A stretch of DNA of 64,000 bases from Gemmatimonas phototrophica (GTDB taxonomy: Bacteria; Gemmatimonadota; Gemmatimonadetes; Gemmatimonadales; Gemmatimonadaceae): positions 3,472,001 through 3,536,000 of the forward strand of contig NZ_CP011454.1 in assembly GCF_000695095.2 (NCBI RefSeq). The letters are read 5' to 3'. The notes beneath the pieces were generated by a model that searched no databases, had not been told where the DNA came from, and saw only the letters and a list, made by a program, of their open reading frames with translations. Below are positions 35,897 to 42,658 of this stretch, in pieces; the stretch's first letter is position 1, and every line of letters begins with the position of its first letter. The translations under genes and the position numbers were made by a program.

Positions 35897-37747
35897 CTAC
35901 AACGGCGCCAGCGGCTCCCCCGCGTACCAGCCCTGCGCCTCCAAGGCATTCAGGAGCGCGTCCACCACCTCTTTCTGCGCATGCGTGGGCAACACCAGCA
36001 GATCACCCGGCTGCGCCCACGCCAGCGCCGCGCGTACCGCGTCCAGCTCACTCGGCCACTCACTAATGACATCGGCCGGCGCACCGGCCTCCAGCAACGC
36101 CGCTCGCAATACGCGCGTCACGTCACCCGGTTCGCGGCCACGCAGCATTTCCGGCATCTCCTTCAGGAACACGCGGTCGTAGCGCGCACTGGCCCACGCC
36201 GCCTGCGCCAGCGCCACCAGCTGTGCGTCGTCGCGGTTGCCGGCCTGACCCAACACCAGCAACCGCCGAGCGGCCGGAATGGCCATGGCCGTGGCCCCCA
36301 GCACGCGCATCCCGTCAGGGTTGTGCGCATAATCCACCAGCACAGTGACATCGCCCAGTACTCGGCGATGCAAGCGCCCCGCATTATCGCCCGCATCGGC
36401 ACCAAACGTGTGCAGCGCTCGATGCACGGCGGCAAACGGAACACCCGCCACACTGGCCGCGAGCGACGCCGCCAGCGCGTTCTCCACGTTATGCGGCGCC
36501 AGCCCGTTCAACGTGAGCGGCATGTGGAGCAACGCGCCGGCATCGCTCCACACCCCCTGCTCCGCCAGCATCAGGCGGCCGTCGCACACCACGGCCCCAT
36601 ACCCGTGCAACTGCACCCCACGCTGCACCAGCGGATGCGCGGCGTCCTGACTGAACCAGGCCACCGCATTGGGATGCTCGCGTTCCATGGCCGCGCCAAG
36701 GGCCCGCAGATGTTCGTCGTCGGCGTTGAGCACCAGCAATGCATCAGGTACCAGAATGCGGGCCACGGTGGCCTTCACTCGCGCCAGATCGCCCAGCGAC
36801 TCCACCCCATACTCACCAAAGTGGTCGGCGCTGATGTTGGTAATGACCGCCGCATGCGCTCGGCTGGTGGCCAGTCCACGGCGTAGCATCCCGCCACGCG
36901 CCGTCTCCAGTACCGCCGCCTGCACGGCACGATCACGCAGTACCAACCGCGCGCCGCCGGGCCCGGTGTAGTCACCCTCAGCCAATTCACGCGTCCCAAT
37001 GTCATCGTGCACAAACACCCCATCACTGCACGACAACCCCACCGTGACACCCGTCGCGCGCCACATGGCAGTTACCAGGCGGGTAGTGGTGGTTTTGCCA
37101 TTGCTGCCGGTTACCAGCACCACAGGTACGTCAGCCACGGTGTACCAGGTGACCAGTTCGGCCACGGGGACACGGTCCAACGGCCAGCTAAGCCCGTAAA
37201 CGCCGCTACCGACGCTGACCATGTCCTCATCGAGCTGCCATGAGCAGCCGCGCTTTGTGGCCTCCGCCACCACGGCGCAGGCAGCCACGAGTGGCGCACG
37301 TTCATTGTCGTAGCGAGTGCGCAACGCGTCATGCACCGTTGGCGTAGACGATAGCAGCCACGCCGCCGCGTCGGCATCACCATCCTGACTGCGCACCCAC
37401 AACTCCGCCCGTACCCACGCCTGCTCTGCCACGGTGGTAGCCGTCATGAGCCCATCCAGCGGCGCCGCCAGAAAGCACACACTCAGCACGCCATGCTGCT
37501 GCGCATTGGGTGAGCCGGATGGCCACCCCAGTGCGTCGCACAGCACGCGCACCTCGCGGGGCCACTGTTCGAGGGCGCGGCGATCGATTGCTTCGGCGTT
37601 GCGTACCTCAAGCACCGCACCCGGCTGCTCACTCCACCAGTTCGCGCCCGTCAACCGCCGACTGTCGAGAATGGTGGGTGTCGGGTACTCCTCGTCGTTG
37701 GCCAGCACGGCAGAGAGCGGTGCCGGGAGCGCAGGGCGCTCAGTCAT
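35897..37747 (-). CDS. Mur-ligase-type protein paralogous to CphA C-terminus
   Basis: A 616-residue protein encoded directly after cphA with an 8-base overlap. Residues about 205-600 form a Mur-ligase-type ATP-dependent amide ligase: P-loop VTGSNGKTTTTR (near 213), EGDYTGPGGARLVLRD, LETARGGMLRRGLA, NISADHFGEYG, HNVENALAA and VDYAHNPDGMRVLG, all close to the same blocks of cyanophycin synthetase. The N-terminal 200 residues match neither the CphA N-domain nor ATP-grasp. It may ligate Arg or a dipeptide to the polymer, or process another Asp-containing substrate; activity is inferred only from context. Confidence 0.8.
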   Translation of the reverse strand: MTERPALPAPLSAVLANDEEYPTPTILDSRRLTGANWWSEQPGAVLEVRNAEAIDRRALEQWPREVRVLCDALGWPSGSPNAQQHGVLSVCFLAAPLDGLMTATTVAEQAWVRAELWVRSQDGDADAAAWLLSSTPTVHDALRTRYDNERAPLVAACAVVAEATKRGCSWQLDEDMVSVGSGVYGLSWPLDRVPVAELVTWYTVADVPVVLVTGSNGKTTTTRLVTAMWRATGVTVGLSCSDGVFVHDDIGTRELAEGDYTGPGGARLVLRDRAVQAAVLETARGGMLRRGLATSRAHAAVITNISADHFGEYGVESLGDLARVKATVARILVPDALLVLNADDEHLRALGAAMEREHPNAVAWFSQDAAHPLVQRGVQLHGYGAVVCDGRLMLAEQGVWSDAGALLHMPLTLNGLAPHNVENALAASLAASVAGVPFAAVHRALHTFGADAGDNAGRLHRRVLGDVTVLVDYAHNPDGMRVLGATAMAIPAARRLLVLGQAGNRDDAQLVALAQAAWASARYDRVFLKEMPEMLRGREPGDVTRVLRAALLEAGAPADVISEWPSELDAVRAALAWAQPGDLLVLPTHAQKEVVDALLNALEAQGWYAGEPLAPL

Positions 37748-40586
37748 TCGACTCCGGCTTCAAGATCACACCACGTCCATCCTGCATGACCAGCACTTCC
37801 TCGCCCCCGCTGCGCCAGCGGGATACGGGAAGGTCGGGAATGATCGTGGGCGGGCGATCGTCGTCGGCCGGCGCTTCTTCGGTAACGGCCGCACGCGGCA
37901 CCGAGCGTGCGGCCCTCGGCGCGGCAAAGGCGCCGTGCCCTTCGGCCCGGAAGTTCACGATCTGCTTCCATCCACGCGCCAGCGCATCGGCGAAGATCAG
38001 CACGAGGTCCCCAGGCTGCGCCATTTCCAGGACCGCGTTGATCGCTTCCTGCTCGTCGATGATGATCGTGATGGCCTCTGGCGACACGCCGTTGGCCACG
38101 AGCCCATCGCGCAACAGCTCCGGTACTTCGCTGGGACCACGGCCGCGCGGCGAGTCGTCGCGGCGGCAGAGGTAGTGATCGAAGCGTGCGTGAGCGGCCG
38201 CCGCGGCAATCGCGAGAATGTCTTCGTTGCGGCGGTCACCCGGCGCCGACAGCACACACAGGCGACGCCCAACCGGACGCAAACGATTGACGAGATCGCA
38301 CAGCGCCGTGATGGCGTGCGCATTGTGACCGTAGTCGAAGAGCACCTTGAACGGATGCTGGTCGTACACGTTCAAGCGGCCCGGCGCCTGGAAGAACGTC
38401 GTGTCGAAGGTGCGGAGGCCATGACGAATGTCTTCGAGACGCACGCCCATGGCGTAGGCCATCGCCGCCGCGAACATCGCGTTCTGCACGTTGAACGTGG
38501 CGCGTCCTTCGAGCGTGGCCGGAATGAGATGCGTCCAGAGCAGCGGAATGTGCTTCTCGCCGTCGTAGATGGTGATCATCTGTCCGTTCACACCACCTTC
38601 GAGTGCCACCGCACAACCGCCCGCGCGAATGTGCTCGCGCACCAGCTCGTGCTGCGGGTCGAGCGTCACGTAGCACACGCGCCGCGCCTTGGTGTACGCG
38701 CCCATGCGCAGGACAAGCGGGTCGTCGGCGTTGAGCACGGCCGTATCGGTGGCGATCTCCACCACAGTGCGCTTGATCTCGGCCAGCTGCTCCAGCGTGT
38801 CGATGCCCTTCTGCCCCAGGTGGTCGGGCTGAATGTTGAGCACCGCGCCCACGTCTACGTGACGCATGGCCATGCCGGCACGCAGCAGACCGCCGCGCGC
38901 CGTTTCGAGCACCGCGACTTCCACCGCCGGGTCACGCAACACAATGCGCGCACTGGTGGGGCCGGTCATGTCCCCTTCCACCGTGCGCTGGCCGTCGATG
39001 TAGACGCCGTCGGTGGTGGTGAGCCCAACGCGCTTGCCGGCCAGCTTGTGAATGTGCGCCAGCAGGCGCGACGTGGTGGTTTTACCGTTGGTGCCCGTAA
39101 TGGCCGCAATGGGAATGGTGGTGGCCACCCCCGGCGGGAAAAGCATATCAAGCACGCGCCCCGCCACATCGCGTGGCCGCCCTTCACTGGGGGCCATGTG
39201 CATGCGGAAGCCGGGCGCCGCGTTCACTTCGCAAATGGCGCCACCAATATCCTTGTACGACTGCGTGATGTCGGGGGTGAGAAAGTCCACGCCACCCACA
39301 TCAAGCCCGATGGCCTTGATCGCGCGCACGGCCATTTCGGCGTTGTCGGGGTGCACCACGTCTGTCATGTCGGCGGCCGTACCGCCGGTGGACAGATTGG
39401 CGGTGAGACGCAGATACACATCTTCACCCGCTGGCGGCACCGTATCCGGCGTGTATCCCAACTTCTCGAGCAGACCGAGGGCCTGCTCATCGAGCGCCAG
39501 CATGGTGAGCACCTTCTCGTGCCCAATGCCACGCCGCGGATCACTGTTCACGATCTCCACCAGCTGCGCAATGGTGTGCACGCCATCGCCCACTACCTTG
39601 CCGGGTTCGCGCTTGCTGACCGCGACGAGCTCACCATCCACCACCACCATGCGATGGTCATGGCCGGTGATGAAGCTCTCCACGATTACGCTGCGCGAAT
39701 GCTCCTGCGCGCGCGCAAAGCCGGCCCGCACATCATCGGCGGTGGCCAGTCCAATGCTCACGCCGCGACCGTGGTTGCCGTTGTACGGCTTGGTCACCAC
39801 CGGATACCCAATGCGTTCGGCGGCGGCCACCGCACGCTCAGCCGTTTGCACCAATCGCTGACGTGGTACCGGTAACCCCAAGTGCGACAGAATGCGGTTG
39901 GTCTCTTCTTTGTCCGACGCCAGCTCCACCGCAATGTGCGACGTGCGCCCGGTAATGGTGGCCTGAATGCGCTGCTGACGCACTCCGTAGCCGAGCTGAA
40001 TGAGGCTCTGCTCGTTGAGACGCAGCCACGGGATGTCGCGGTCTTCGGCGGCCTTGACCAGGCTGGCCGTGCTGGGTCCCAGGGCCCGTCGCTGCGCGTA
40101 GCGAATGAAGCCATCGCGGCGTTCGGCCAGATCGAACGACGGATCAAACGACGCACTGCGCAGCTCTGCCGGGAGGAGCGACTGCAGCAGATCCAGCGCC
40201 ACATCGGTGGCTTCCAGCCCCACGTCTTCCTGTTCGTATTCGAACACCACGTCGTACACGCCGGCCTGCGTGGTCTCGCGGGTCTTGCCGAACGTGACAT
40301 GGGCGCCCGCCACATTCTGCAACTCGATGGCGACATGCTCCAGCACATGCCCCAGCCAGGTGCCGTCGTCTTCGGTCATGCGGCGCACGAAGCCCCCCGG
40401 CTCACCGTACGAGCAGCCGTGTTCGCGCAGGCCGGGCAGTGCGTCCAGCAGCGCCGACACGAAGTCGTCGCCAAGTTTGACCGTTGGCCACGCTTCCAGC
40501 ACTCCGAGGTCAAGCACCAGCCGAATGACAGGAAAATGTGCGTAGTGGCTGGGCCCTACGTATACGGAGCGATCAAGAATGCGCAT
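37740..40586 (-). CDS. cphA: Cyanophycin synthetase
   Basis: Makes cyanophycin, a polymer of an aspartate backbone with arginine side chains, by two ATP-dependent ligations. The 948-residue protein has the N-terminal domain (VYVGPSHYAHFPVIRLVLDL), an ATP-grasp domain (VTKPYNGNHGRGVSIGL, DHRMVVVDGELVAVSKREPG, EVNAAPGFRMHM) that adds Asp, and a Mur-ligase domain (ITGTNGKTTTSRLLAHI near 495, GDMTGPTSARIVL, ETARGGLLRAGM, FDYGHNAHAI) that adds Arg. It is longer than the usual 870-900 residues because of a C-terminal extension of about 60 residues. It lies between cphB (22 bp upstream) and the Mur-ligase paralogue. Confidence 0.95.
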   Translation of the reverse strand: MRILDRSVYVGPSHYAHFPVIRLVLDLGVLEAWPTVKLGDDFVSALLDALPGLREHGCSYGEPGGFVRRMTEDDGTWLGHVLEHVAIELQNVAGAHVTFGKTRETTQAGVYDVVFEYEQEDVGLEATDVALDLLQSLLPAELRSASFDPSFDLAERRDGFIRYAQRRALGPSTASLVKAAEDRDIPWLRLNEQSLIQLGYGVRQQRIQATITGRTSHIAVELASDKEETNRILSHLGLPVPRQRLVQTAERAVAAAERIGYPVVTKPYNGNHGRGVSIGLATADDVRAGFARAQEHSRSVIVESFITGHDHRMVVVDGELVAVSKREPGKVVGDGVHTIAQLVEIVNSDPRRGIGHEKVLTMLALDEQALGLLEKLGYTPDTVPPAGEDVYLRLTANLSTGGTAADMTDVVHPDNAEMAVRAIKAIGLDVGGVDFLTPDITQSYKDIGGAICEVNAAPGFRMHMAPSEGRPRDVAGRVLDMLFPPGVATTIPIAAITGTNGKTTTSRLLAHIHKLAGKRVGLTTTDGVYIDGQRTVEGDMTGPTSARIVLRDPAVEVAVLETARGGLLRAGMAMRHVDVGAVLNIQPDHLGQKGIDTLEQLAEIKRTVVEIATDTAVLNADDPLVLRMGAYTKARRVCYVTLDPQHELVREHIRAGGCAVALEGGVNGQMITIYDGEKHIPLLWTHLIPATLEGRATFNVQNAMFAAAMAYAMGVRLEDIRHGLRTFDTTFFQAPGRLNVYDQHPFKVLFDYGHNAHAITALCDLVNRLRPVGRRLCVLSAPGDRRNEDILAIAAAAAHARFDHYLCRRDDSPRGRGPSEVPELLRDGLVANGVSPEAITIIIDEQEAINAVLEMAQPGDLVLIFADALARGWKQIVNFRAEGHGAFAAPRAARSVPRAAVTEEAPADDDRPPTIIPDLPVSRWRSGGEEVLVMQDGRGVILKPESND

Positions 40587-40608
40587 GGCCTAACGCGGCA
40601 AAAGGGAG

Positions 40609-41406
40609 CTACACAGCGCATGCCGCGGCGGGTACCGCGACATGCGTGTGCAGGTTGTACGTCGAGCCGGCGCTCAGCACCGTGATGCGCATACCTACCA
40701 CTTCAATCGGTTCACCAGGTACCGCGTGCGCCACCGAGCAGTACTCCACATGCGTGGGGTCCACGATCGTCACGGCACCGGTGCCCATGATATCCACCGT
40801 ATCGTCAGGACCAATGAACGCCGCGGTGTCTTCGTCTACCCCGAGGCCCAGGCAGAACGGATTGTAGGCAAGTGCCGTGAGCAATCGTCCCAGCCGATCA
40901 CGCTGGCGGAAATGCTGATCGACAATGATGCGGTTGCTCAGCCCCAACCCGGCACACATGTGCACCATGCCCACGCGGGGCGTACTGCCTTCGTCGCCCC
41001 AGGCAATCATGTGCTCGCTCATGTACGCGGCACCGGCGCTGGTGCCGGCAATGGGAACGCCGTTGGCGTTCAGCTCACGCAGCAAACGCGCCACGGGAGT
41101 GCCCCCTAAAATGCTCGAGAGCTTGAGCTGACTACCGCCGGTGAGAAACACACCGGTCGCGTCGCCGAGCCACTGCAGCCAATCCTGGTCGTCGCAATCC
41201 GAGCGACGCTCGAAATTGAACGCCTTGGCAGCACGCACGCCCTGCCGCTGGAAGATGCGCTCGTAGTACGCCCCCATATCCGGCTCACTGGAGGCGGTGG
41301 GGATAATCGCAATGCGGGCCTGGTCGCCTCCCGCCAGAGCGATGAACCGCTCGATGATGGCGGGCGACATGAGCTTGCCGCCAATGGGGATGATCCAACC
41401 GCGCAT
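40609..41406 (-). CDS. cphB: Cyanophycinase
   Basis: Peptidase of family S51 that degrades cyanophycin to beta-Asp-Arg dipeptides. From the ATG at 41406 the protein has 265 residues (MRGWIIPIGGKLMSP). It carries IIPTASSEP, FLTGGSQLKL, the nucleophile GTSAGAAYMSE (Ser123) and the acidic LGLGVDEDTAA block. No signal peptide is present, so it acts in the cytoplasm with CphA. First gene of the cphB-cphA-ligase operon. Confidence 0.93.
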   Translation of the reverse strand: MRGWIIPIGGKLMSPAIIERFIALAGGDQARIAIIPTASSEPDMGAYYERIFQRQGVRAAKAFNFERRSDCDDQDWLQWLGDATGVFLTGGSQLKLSSILGGTPVARLLRELNANGVPIAGTSAGAAYMSEHMIAWGDEGSTPRVGMVHMCAGLGLSNRIIVDQHFRQRDRLGRLLTALAYNPFCLGLGVDEDTAAFIGPDDTVDIMGTGAVTIVDPTHVEYCSVAHAVPGEPIEVVGMRITVLSAGSTYNLHTHVAVPAAACAV

Positions 41407-41485
41407 GCGATGGGTCCGTGGAGATGGAAAAGGAGCGCTGCTGCTCAAAGCTAACGGCGGCGGGGGCCTCCGGGTAACGTTCAGC

Positions 41486-42658
41486 ATGCTCGTTCTTCTC
41501 AAAAACTGCACCGTATTTGCCCCGCACCCCCTTGGCCAGCAGCATCTGCTGATTGCCGGCGAACGGGTGGTGTGGATGGGCCCTGATCTGGCAGCCCTCC
41601 CGCCCGCGCTGAACGCGGAGGTGGTGGACCTTGCCGGCACCGTCGTAGTCCCCGGGCTGGTGGATGGCCATGCCCACCTGAGTGGCGGCGGTGGCGAAGC
41701 GGGGCCCCAGAGCAAAGTGCCGGCGCCCTTCCTGAGTCGCTACACCAGCGCCGGTGTTACCACCGTGGTGGGGGTGCTGGGCACTGACGATACCACGCGC
41801 ACCACCGGTGAGCTGGTGACGGCCGCCAACGGTCTGGTCGCCGAGGGGCTGTCAGCGTGGTGTCACACCGGCGGGTACCACGTGCCACCGGTGACACTCA
41901 CCGGGAGCGTGCGCGGCGACATTGCGTTTGTGGACCGCATTATTGGCGTGGGTGAGGTGGCCATTGCCGATCATCGCAGCAGCCAGCCAACAGTGGCCGA
42001 GCTGCTGCGGCTGGCGAGTGAGGCGCATGTGGGAGGCCTCATGAGCGGCAAGGCCGGCGTGCTGCACCTGCATGTGGGCGATGGGCTGCGCGGGCTGGCG
42101 CAGATTCGCGAGATGCTCTCGGAGAGCGAGCTGCCGCCGCGGGTGTTCAACCCCACGCATGTGAACCGTCGCAAGGCGCTCTTTGACGAGGCCGTGGCGT
42201 TGGCGCGGGCGGGGTGCGTGGTGGACATCACCGCGTTTGACGTGGGCAAGGACGAAGATGCCTGGAGCGCCGCCGATGCGCTGGAGCGCTACTGGGCCGC
42301 GGGCGCGCCGTTAGCCAACGTGACCGTGAGCAGTGATGGCGGCGGGTGTCTGCCCACCTTCGACGCCAACGGTCGTGTGGTGGCCATGGATGTCGGCGAT
42401 GCCGGCACGCTCTGGCGCACCGTGCAGACGCTGCGCGAACGCGGCCACGCATTGGAGCAAGTGCTGCCGCCGTTCACCAGCAACGTGGCGGATTTGCTAC
42501 GGCTGCCACGCAAGGGGCGCCTTGCCGTGGGGCATGACGCGGACCTGCTGGTACTCGACAAGAGCGGAGCGATTTGCGATGTGATGTGCCGCGGCGCGTG
42601 GCATCAGCGCGACGGGAAGACCGTGAAGCGGGGGATGTTTGAGGGGGGTGCGGAGTAG
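41486..42658 (+). CDS. iadA: Isoaspartyl dipeptidase (beta-aspartyl peptidase)
   Basis: Zinc amidohydrolase-fold enzyme that hydrolyses beta-aspartyl dipeptides, including beta-Asp-Arg from cyanophycin. The 390-residue protein has the metal motif DGHAHLSGGGGE, WCHTGGYHVPP, LHLHVGDG, FNPTHVNR and the catalytic Asp in VSSDGGG. ATG at 41486 gives a normal family start (MLVLLKNCTVFAP). It is divergent from cphB with 79 bp between the start codons, completing a synthesis-degradation-assimilation set. The long in-frame extension upstream to 41297 overlaps cphB and is not used. Confidence 0.93.
   Translation: MLVLLKNCTVFAPHPLGQQHLLIAGERVVWMGPDLAALPPALNAEVVDLAGTVVVPGLVDGHAHLSGGGGEAGPQSKVPAPFLSRYTSAGVTTVVGVLGTDDTTRTTGELVTAANGLVAEGLSAWCHTGGYHVPPVTLTGSVRGDIAFVDRIIGVGEVAIADHRSSQPTVAELLRLASEAHVGGLMSGKAGVLHLHVGDGLRGLAQIREMLSESELPPRVFNPTHVNRRKALFDEAVALARAGCVVDITAFDVGKDEDAWSAADALERYWAAGAPLANVTVSSDGGGCLPTFDANGRVVAMDVGDAGTLWRTVQTLRERGHALEQVLPPFTSNVADLLRLPRKGRLAVGHDADLLVLDKSGAICDVMCRGAWHQRDGKTVKRGMFEGGAE

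Follow-up and report, generated by a model that had tools for sequence, protein, structure and literature searches.

The window, which is the whole 64,000-nucleotide stretch of DNA analysed, contains an operon of cphB, cphA (CphA1) and a gene for a 616-residue Mur-type ligase, all on the minus strand, with iadA divergent from it. The three operon genes are closely packed, cphA and the third gene overlapping by 8 bp, and the divergent spacing between cphB and iadA is about 79 bp. For both cphB and iadA, the probable start codon (ATG at 41406 and ATG at 41486, respectively) falls inside the listed open reading frame. Promoter and terminator calls at the locus gave nothing of use. The third protein is called N-M below, after its N plus M architecture; relatives are labelled 'Mur ligase family protein' in RefSeq. 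The genes are as follows:

35897-37747, minus strand: N-M ligase gene, 616 aa, ATG start (open reading frame, Pfam/NCBIfam, AF2 model with mean pLDDT 93.3)
37740-40586, minus strand: cphA (CphA1), 948 aa, with N, G and M domains and a tail (Pfam/NCBIfam)
40609-41406, minus strand: cphB, cyanophycinase (TIGR02069)
41486-42658, plus strand: iadA, isoaspartyl dipeptidase (TIGR01975)

CphB (TIGR02069, 230.8 bits against 126.6), CphA1 (TIGR02068, 1128.5 against 850) and IadA (TIGR01975, 391.4 against 331.25) all score over the curated cut-offs. Together with the coordinates, these scores bear out the operon of cphB, cphA and a ligase, divergent from iadA, that the original prediction had described. 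The same gene arrangement is kept across many genomes and is therefore not due to chance. Seven proteins encoded in the genome contain Mur_ligase_M, including the CphA1 and the N-M ligase of this locus.

Architecture of the N-M ligase

The only Pfam matches of N-M above the cut-off are Mur_ligase_M and Mur_ligase_C; the ATP-grasp domain is missing, as had been foreseen. The closest NCBIfam model is TIGR02068, matched only over model positions 476-858 with 338.9 bits against the cut-off of 850, which leaves N-M outside the CphA1 enzymes, taken here as single chains with N, G and M domains and a score over this cut-off. The protein is also below the curated cut-offs of murC, murD, murE and murF, the best Mur model giving 100.5 bits against 476.

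The N-terminal 200 residues have no Pfam match and had been described as being of unknown type. They superpose on the CphA1 N domain in the AF2 model, which was built on 30 homologues; the pLDDT of the N-terminus folded alone and without an alignment was 42.7. The solved structures nearest to the model are all CphA1. By VIA-align, residues 24..604 of the model correspond to residues 1..872 of SuCphA1 over 555 residues (Z 35.8, rmsd 5.6), and 409 residues align with TeCphA1 (Z 37.6, rmsd 2.7 A); the best non-CphA chain is MurE with Z 25.1. The N-domain signal obtained by sequence only is weak (hhalign E 0.001, local, at the correct N-terminal position). Because the N-M model superposes on CphA1, the N-terminal part is a divergent CphA N domain, and the G domain has been lost. 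As modelled, N-M is thus the CphA1 fold minus the backbone-ligating ATP-grasp (G) domain, with a divergent N domain and a complete M domain, the side-chain ligase:

37139-37678, minus strand: residues 24-203, a divergent CphA N domain lacking the C-x19-21-HxxEH site (VIA-align; motif absent)
35936-37138, minus strand: residues 204-604, an M domain of the Mur ligase type (sharing 36% identity with its counterpart in the neighbouring CphA1; invariant catalytic residues)

A fragmented or decayed CphA1 was considered as the origin of this protein and ruled out, the frame being open and the residues conserved in many genomes.

The absence of the G domain bears directly on the earlier idea that the third protein re-ligates beta-Asp-Arg dipeptides into the polymer in the manner of CphA2. 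Dipeptides of this kind are made by CphB, encoded next door (chemistry in PMC10206079), but the backbone chemistry in both CphA1 and CphA2 belongs to the G domain (PMC9262961, PMC10206079). N-M lacks the active G-type site polymerising beta-Asp-Arg dipeptides by which a CphA2 is recognised, and re-ligation is very unlikely because the G domain is absent. Moreover, the dipeptide has no free Asp beta-carboxylate for an M domain to activate, this group being occupied already.

CphA-type proteins without the G domain were also found in Deinococcus deserti (724 aa, L074:4023-6197) and Legionella adelaidensis (622 aa, L075:4575-6443). Both combine a recognisable CphA N domain (PF18921) with an M domain, and the Legionella protein has kept HxxEH. 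The Legionella gene adjoins those of a cyanophycinase and an isoaspartyl peptidase, and the neighbours shown do not include cphA. In the tree, where the Legionella branch is long, the two proteins fall among CphA sequences and not with N-M; the G domain was therefore apparently lost more than once.

Active site and lid

Chain growth by CphA1 takes place at the C-terminus: an Asp is added by the G domain, after which the M domain activates the beta-carboxylate of this residue and couples Arg to it (PMC9262961). For the chain to be bound by the M domain, its last Asp must be unmodified (PMC9427784). These two studies give the functions of the P-loop Lys, the Mg-binding Glu (Glu558 in TeCphA1, PMC9427784) and the Asp-His pair (D585A H586A being the inactivating M-domain change in SuCphA1, PMC9262961). 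The corresponding features of N-M and its lid segments are:

37088-37108, minus strand: P-loop GSNGKTT, residues 214-220 (alignment)
36890-36907, minus strand: ETARGG, residues 281-286, with the Mg-binding Glu (role from PMC9427784)
36815-36829, minus strand: ADHFG, residues 307-311, with the catalytic Asp-His pair (role from PMC9262961)
36134-36166, minus strand: lid segment LKEMPEMLRGR, in place of the acidic RRDD segment of CphA1 (alignment)
35972-35998, minus strand: lid segment LPTH (H589), at the conserved Asp/Glu (D867) of CphA1 (alignment)

P-loop residues K218 and T220, as well as E281, R284, D308/H309, K325, R458, D472, H475 and R505, do not vary among 56 N-M proteins and are the same in CphA1. 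N-M thereby has the intact P-loop, Mg-binding Glu and Asp-His pair of an M domain, and the intact P-loop and Mur motifs reported in the original prediction hold on alignment, with the catalytic residues kept rather than lost. The C-x19-HxxEH site of CphA1, which cuts cyanophycin into primers and is found in 83% of CphA1s (PMC9262961), is absent in every N-M protein read. The motif (Cx19-21HxxEH) is kept in every partner CphA1 with a readable N domain and is intact in the local CphA1 (40335-40415).

The retained core allows N-M to be viewed as an additional Arg ligase, either accelerating the attachment of side chains or repairing Asp units that lack Arg. All core catalytic residues are kept, and the 36% identity to the CphA1 M domain speaks for arginine-ligase ancestry; such auxiliary arginylation is nevertheless unlikely, as the lid acids are changed in N-M and the same operon already has a CphA1 with an intact M domain.

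The changes in the lid concern two places. The RRDD (or KADD, KEDD) of CphA1 is replaced by KEMxxYLRGR or KDIxGYLRGR in N-M, and the near-invariant D867 (Asp or Glu in CphA1) by His or Leu/Ser. One acidic lid residue (E/D530) is usually retained. The changed segments align with the DNPR and GKGHE loops of MurE, which are the amino-acid choosers of that enzyme. A donor other than Arg is plausible for N-M because its lid residues differ from those of CphA1 in these MurE-type selector segments, and the shift of the lid may mean that the donor, and perhaps the acceptor too, changed relative to CphA1. R505, which should hold the alpha-carboxylate of the amino acid, is kept.

Such a lid would suit modification of the polymer, in which N-M would attach something different from Arg, another amino acid, to part of the Asp side chains of the chain being grown by CphA1, the tail only docking N-M to the synthetase. 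This is a serious possibility, although short of an even one. The replacement of the RRDD-type and D867 residues within MurE-selector segments, the conservation of the predicted alpha-carboxylate holder and the promiscuity of IadA (PMC10206079) are in its favour. On the other hand, the lid differences are an alignment-based prediction, the acidic residue at E/D530 is usually still there, and the literature found contains no characterisation of cyanophycin from these organisms. The addition of a different side chain, which had been suggested for the third protein, is weakly favoured by the lid changes.

The CphA1 tail and its inheritance with N-M

What the original prediction missed is a conserved Asp-terminated tail of the partner CphA1. 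Past the lid, the protein continues with a variable linker, hydrophobic residues, R-D-x-R-G-[VIL], 7 to 11 further residues and E-x-x-D, so that the family consensus reads R-D-x-R-G-[VIL] ... E-x-x-D-COOH. The tail peptide of the local CphA1 ends in ...RDERGVRLARESDD, and its parts are:

37785-37961, minus strand: variable linker from the CphA1 lid to the C-terminal motif (alignment)
37743-37784, minus strand: CphA1 C-terminal motif QDGRGVILKPESND-COOH (66/66 distinct tails Asp-ended)

All CphA1s that have an N-M partner carry the DxRG tail with Asp-COOH at its end (66 of 66 distinct tails). The motif gave 67 distinct matches; the one left out of the tail count (L092), which might be taken for a tail not ending in Asp, arose by chance in a CphA1 that has no N-M partner. 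The tail motif is missing from all 45 unpaired CphA-type proteins, four of which have a C-terminal Asp. In one genome of 2.2 Mb (G339), the tail is present and N-M was not detected. The terminal Asp has a position entropy of at most 0.11 bits versus 2.4 and 2.9 bits at the two preceding residues, and 59 of the 67 matches have Glu at -3, though the distance to DxRG ranges between 7 and 11 residues. Solved structures, including CphA1 chains of four organisms, gave no match to a profile built from eight tails.

The overlap of the two genes was considered as a source of the terminal Asp. The gaps between cphA and the N-M gene range from -8 to +177, both GAC and GAT serve as terminal codons, all three stop codons are used, and the tail is retained in three genomes having cphA and N-M on separate contigs. 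An overlap artefact is ruled out because of this variation and the unlinked pairs.

Because the terminal Asp is invariant, a protein-linked primer is worth testing: N-M would charge the tail's last Asp with an amino acid on its side chain, and the G and M domains of CphA1 would extend the covalent primer. Cyanophycin grown covalently from a synthetase tail charged by N-M is a rather doubtful proposition, albeit one with several observations behind it. The Glu at -3 is conserved in spite of the variable spacing, the terminal Asp is not forced by overlap, an Asp borne on a protein needs the M-type reaction first, N-M would supply M activity without G, and it has no site that would cut the primer. 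However, the partner CphA1s keep HxxEH; they should already make their own primers and be primer-independent. A docking motif in which the C-terminal carboxylate is read would also give the same pattern.

N-M is found in the Gemmatimonadota, in relatives of the Xanthomonadales and in the Alphaproteobacteria. Among 200 Gemmatimonadota genomes, N-M occurs in 27, of which 25 have a CphA1 over the cut-off; of the two others, one has N-M at a contig start and one has it broken into short frames. The latter (G185, L091:2393-3812) is possibly a decaying cassette. A 299-genome sample of the order of a Dokdonella genome has N-M in 90 and CphA1 in 98, and a broad sample of the phylum of Dokdonella has N-M in 5 of 398, two of them already in the order sample. 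Plasmid examples come from Shinella zoogloeoides, two Ruegeria strains and a record labelled Roseateles, the gene order being cyanophycinase, cphA and 'Mur ligase family protein' in all of them.

In a quick tree, the N-M proteins form one clade apart from the CphA1 M domains (SH-aLRT 97), and their CphA1 partners also form one clade (SH-aLRT 97, likewise a quick tree). As the tailed CphA1s form one clade, the association is a single evolutionary one and not many. The branching of N-M and of the CphA1 partners is mirrored (r = 0.85, with 0 of 2000 permutations as high). Judged from these sequence comparisons, N-M is a monophyletic partner co-inherited with one CphA1 clade, and the tail and N-M may go back to a single origin and yet have no contact. 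The mean pairwise distance is 2.09 for N-M versus 0.67 for CphA1, so that N-M evolves about three times faster. This rate would suit a non-catalytic scaffold or regulator of CphA1, but the ATP, Mg and catalytic residues are fully conserved over several bacterial groups, and such a role is quite improbable.

Several other genes were seen during the survey. CphA1 without N-M occurs in 13 of the 200 Gemmatimonadota genomes, and 10 of these 13 have a gene for a protein of about 350 aa beside cphA (L081-L086, L090, L092; e.g. L086:4758-5822). This protein consists of a CphA N domain with C-x19-HxxEH intact and about 200 residues without a Pfam match, and may be a stand-alone primer-making peptidase. 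Six N-M genes (L060-L065) have an in-frame insert of about 170 codons, DUF559/Vsr-like endonuclease in look; its flanks, PFSxREKVAEGRMRE and SSALRAPSPGGRR, are probably translated repeat sequence. A separate and strongly diverged CphA-like group (453-836 aa; L014, L015, L017) occurs in Lysobacterales and Wenzhouxiangella as a clade of its own (SH-aLRT 100).

Proposed role and comparison with known systems

The third gene would encode a CphA1 paralogue reduced to the N and M domains. Somewhat more likely than not, N-M is a trans-acting ATP-dependent ligase by which the side chain of a C-terminal Asp is coupled to an amino acid, directed by or acting on the CphA1 tail. With ATP, it would activate in trans the beta-carboxylate of this Asp and join the amino acid to it; with the G domain gone, it would be incapable of lengthening the Asp backbone. 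An M domain without G therefore leaves decoration of a C-terminal Asp as the only possible reaction. N-M appears dedicated to one CphA1 clade having the DxRG tail ending in Asp; recruitment of N-M is the most likely function of this tail, whose terminal Asp may also be an acceptor in its own right. We infer the activity of N-M, the C-terminal Asp as acceptor and the binding of N-M by the tail. The main versions of the role are polymer modification, if the acceptor is the chain end made by CphA1, and protein-linked priming, if it is the Asp ending the tail.

In the literature covered, mostly outside subscription papers, neither a CphA without the G domain, nor a second Mur ligase in cyanophycin operons, nor a CphA C-terminal tail was found. 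The G-less CphA paralogue with its dedicated tailed CphA1 is real and conserved, and apparently undescribed, and the pair suggests an undescribed step in the start or modification of the polymer. Two questions are touched, the initiation of cyanophycin chains and the existence of natural cyanophycins besides Asp-Arg; both can be tested directly on a two-protein CphA system that is widespread and has an invariant Asp-ended tail. For biotechnology, it would offer a genetically encoded means to attach or vary the polymer. The N-M proteins have been hidden by their RefSeq name.

N-M shares with CphA1 (TIGR02068; PDB 7lg5, 7txv, 7wae) the N and M folds, the catalytic residues of M and the operon context, but it lacks the G (ATP-grasp) domain and HxxEH, and its lid residues are changed. 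Like the cyanobacterial CphA2, it is a CphA paralogue specialised to one reaction; the specialisation is opposite, since the single active site of CphA2 polymerises dipeptides (PMC10206079), whereas N-M has kept M and lost G. The CphA'-like proteins of other surveyed Pseudomonadota (about 720-770 aa) are also encoded by a second CphA-type gene beside cphA, a full one at loci L115-L122 and L139. In contrast to N-M, which is without the G domain, they match TIGR02068 over 1-716 and hence are without the M lid. MurE and the other Mur ligases have the fold and chemistry of the M domain in common with N-M, which differs in having no UDP-MurNAc-binding N domain and in falling well short of every Mur cut-off. 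Should the tail be the acceptor, N-M would also resemble RimK, an ATP-grasp enzyme adding amino acids at the protein C-terminus, in carrying out an ATP-dependent addition of an amino acid at such an end.
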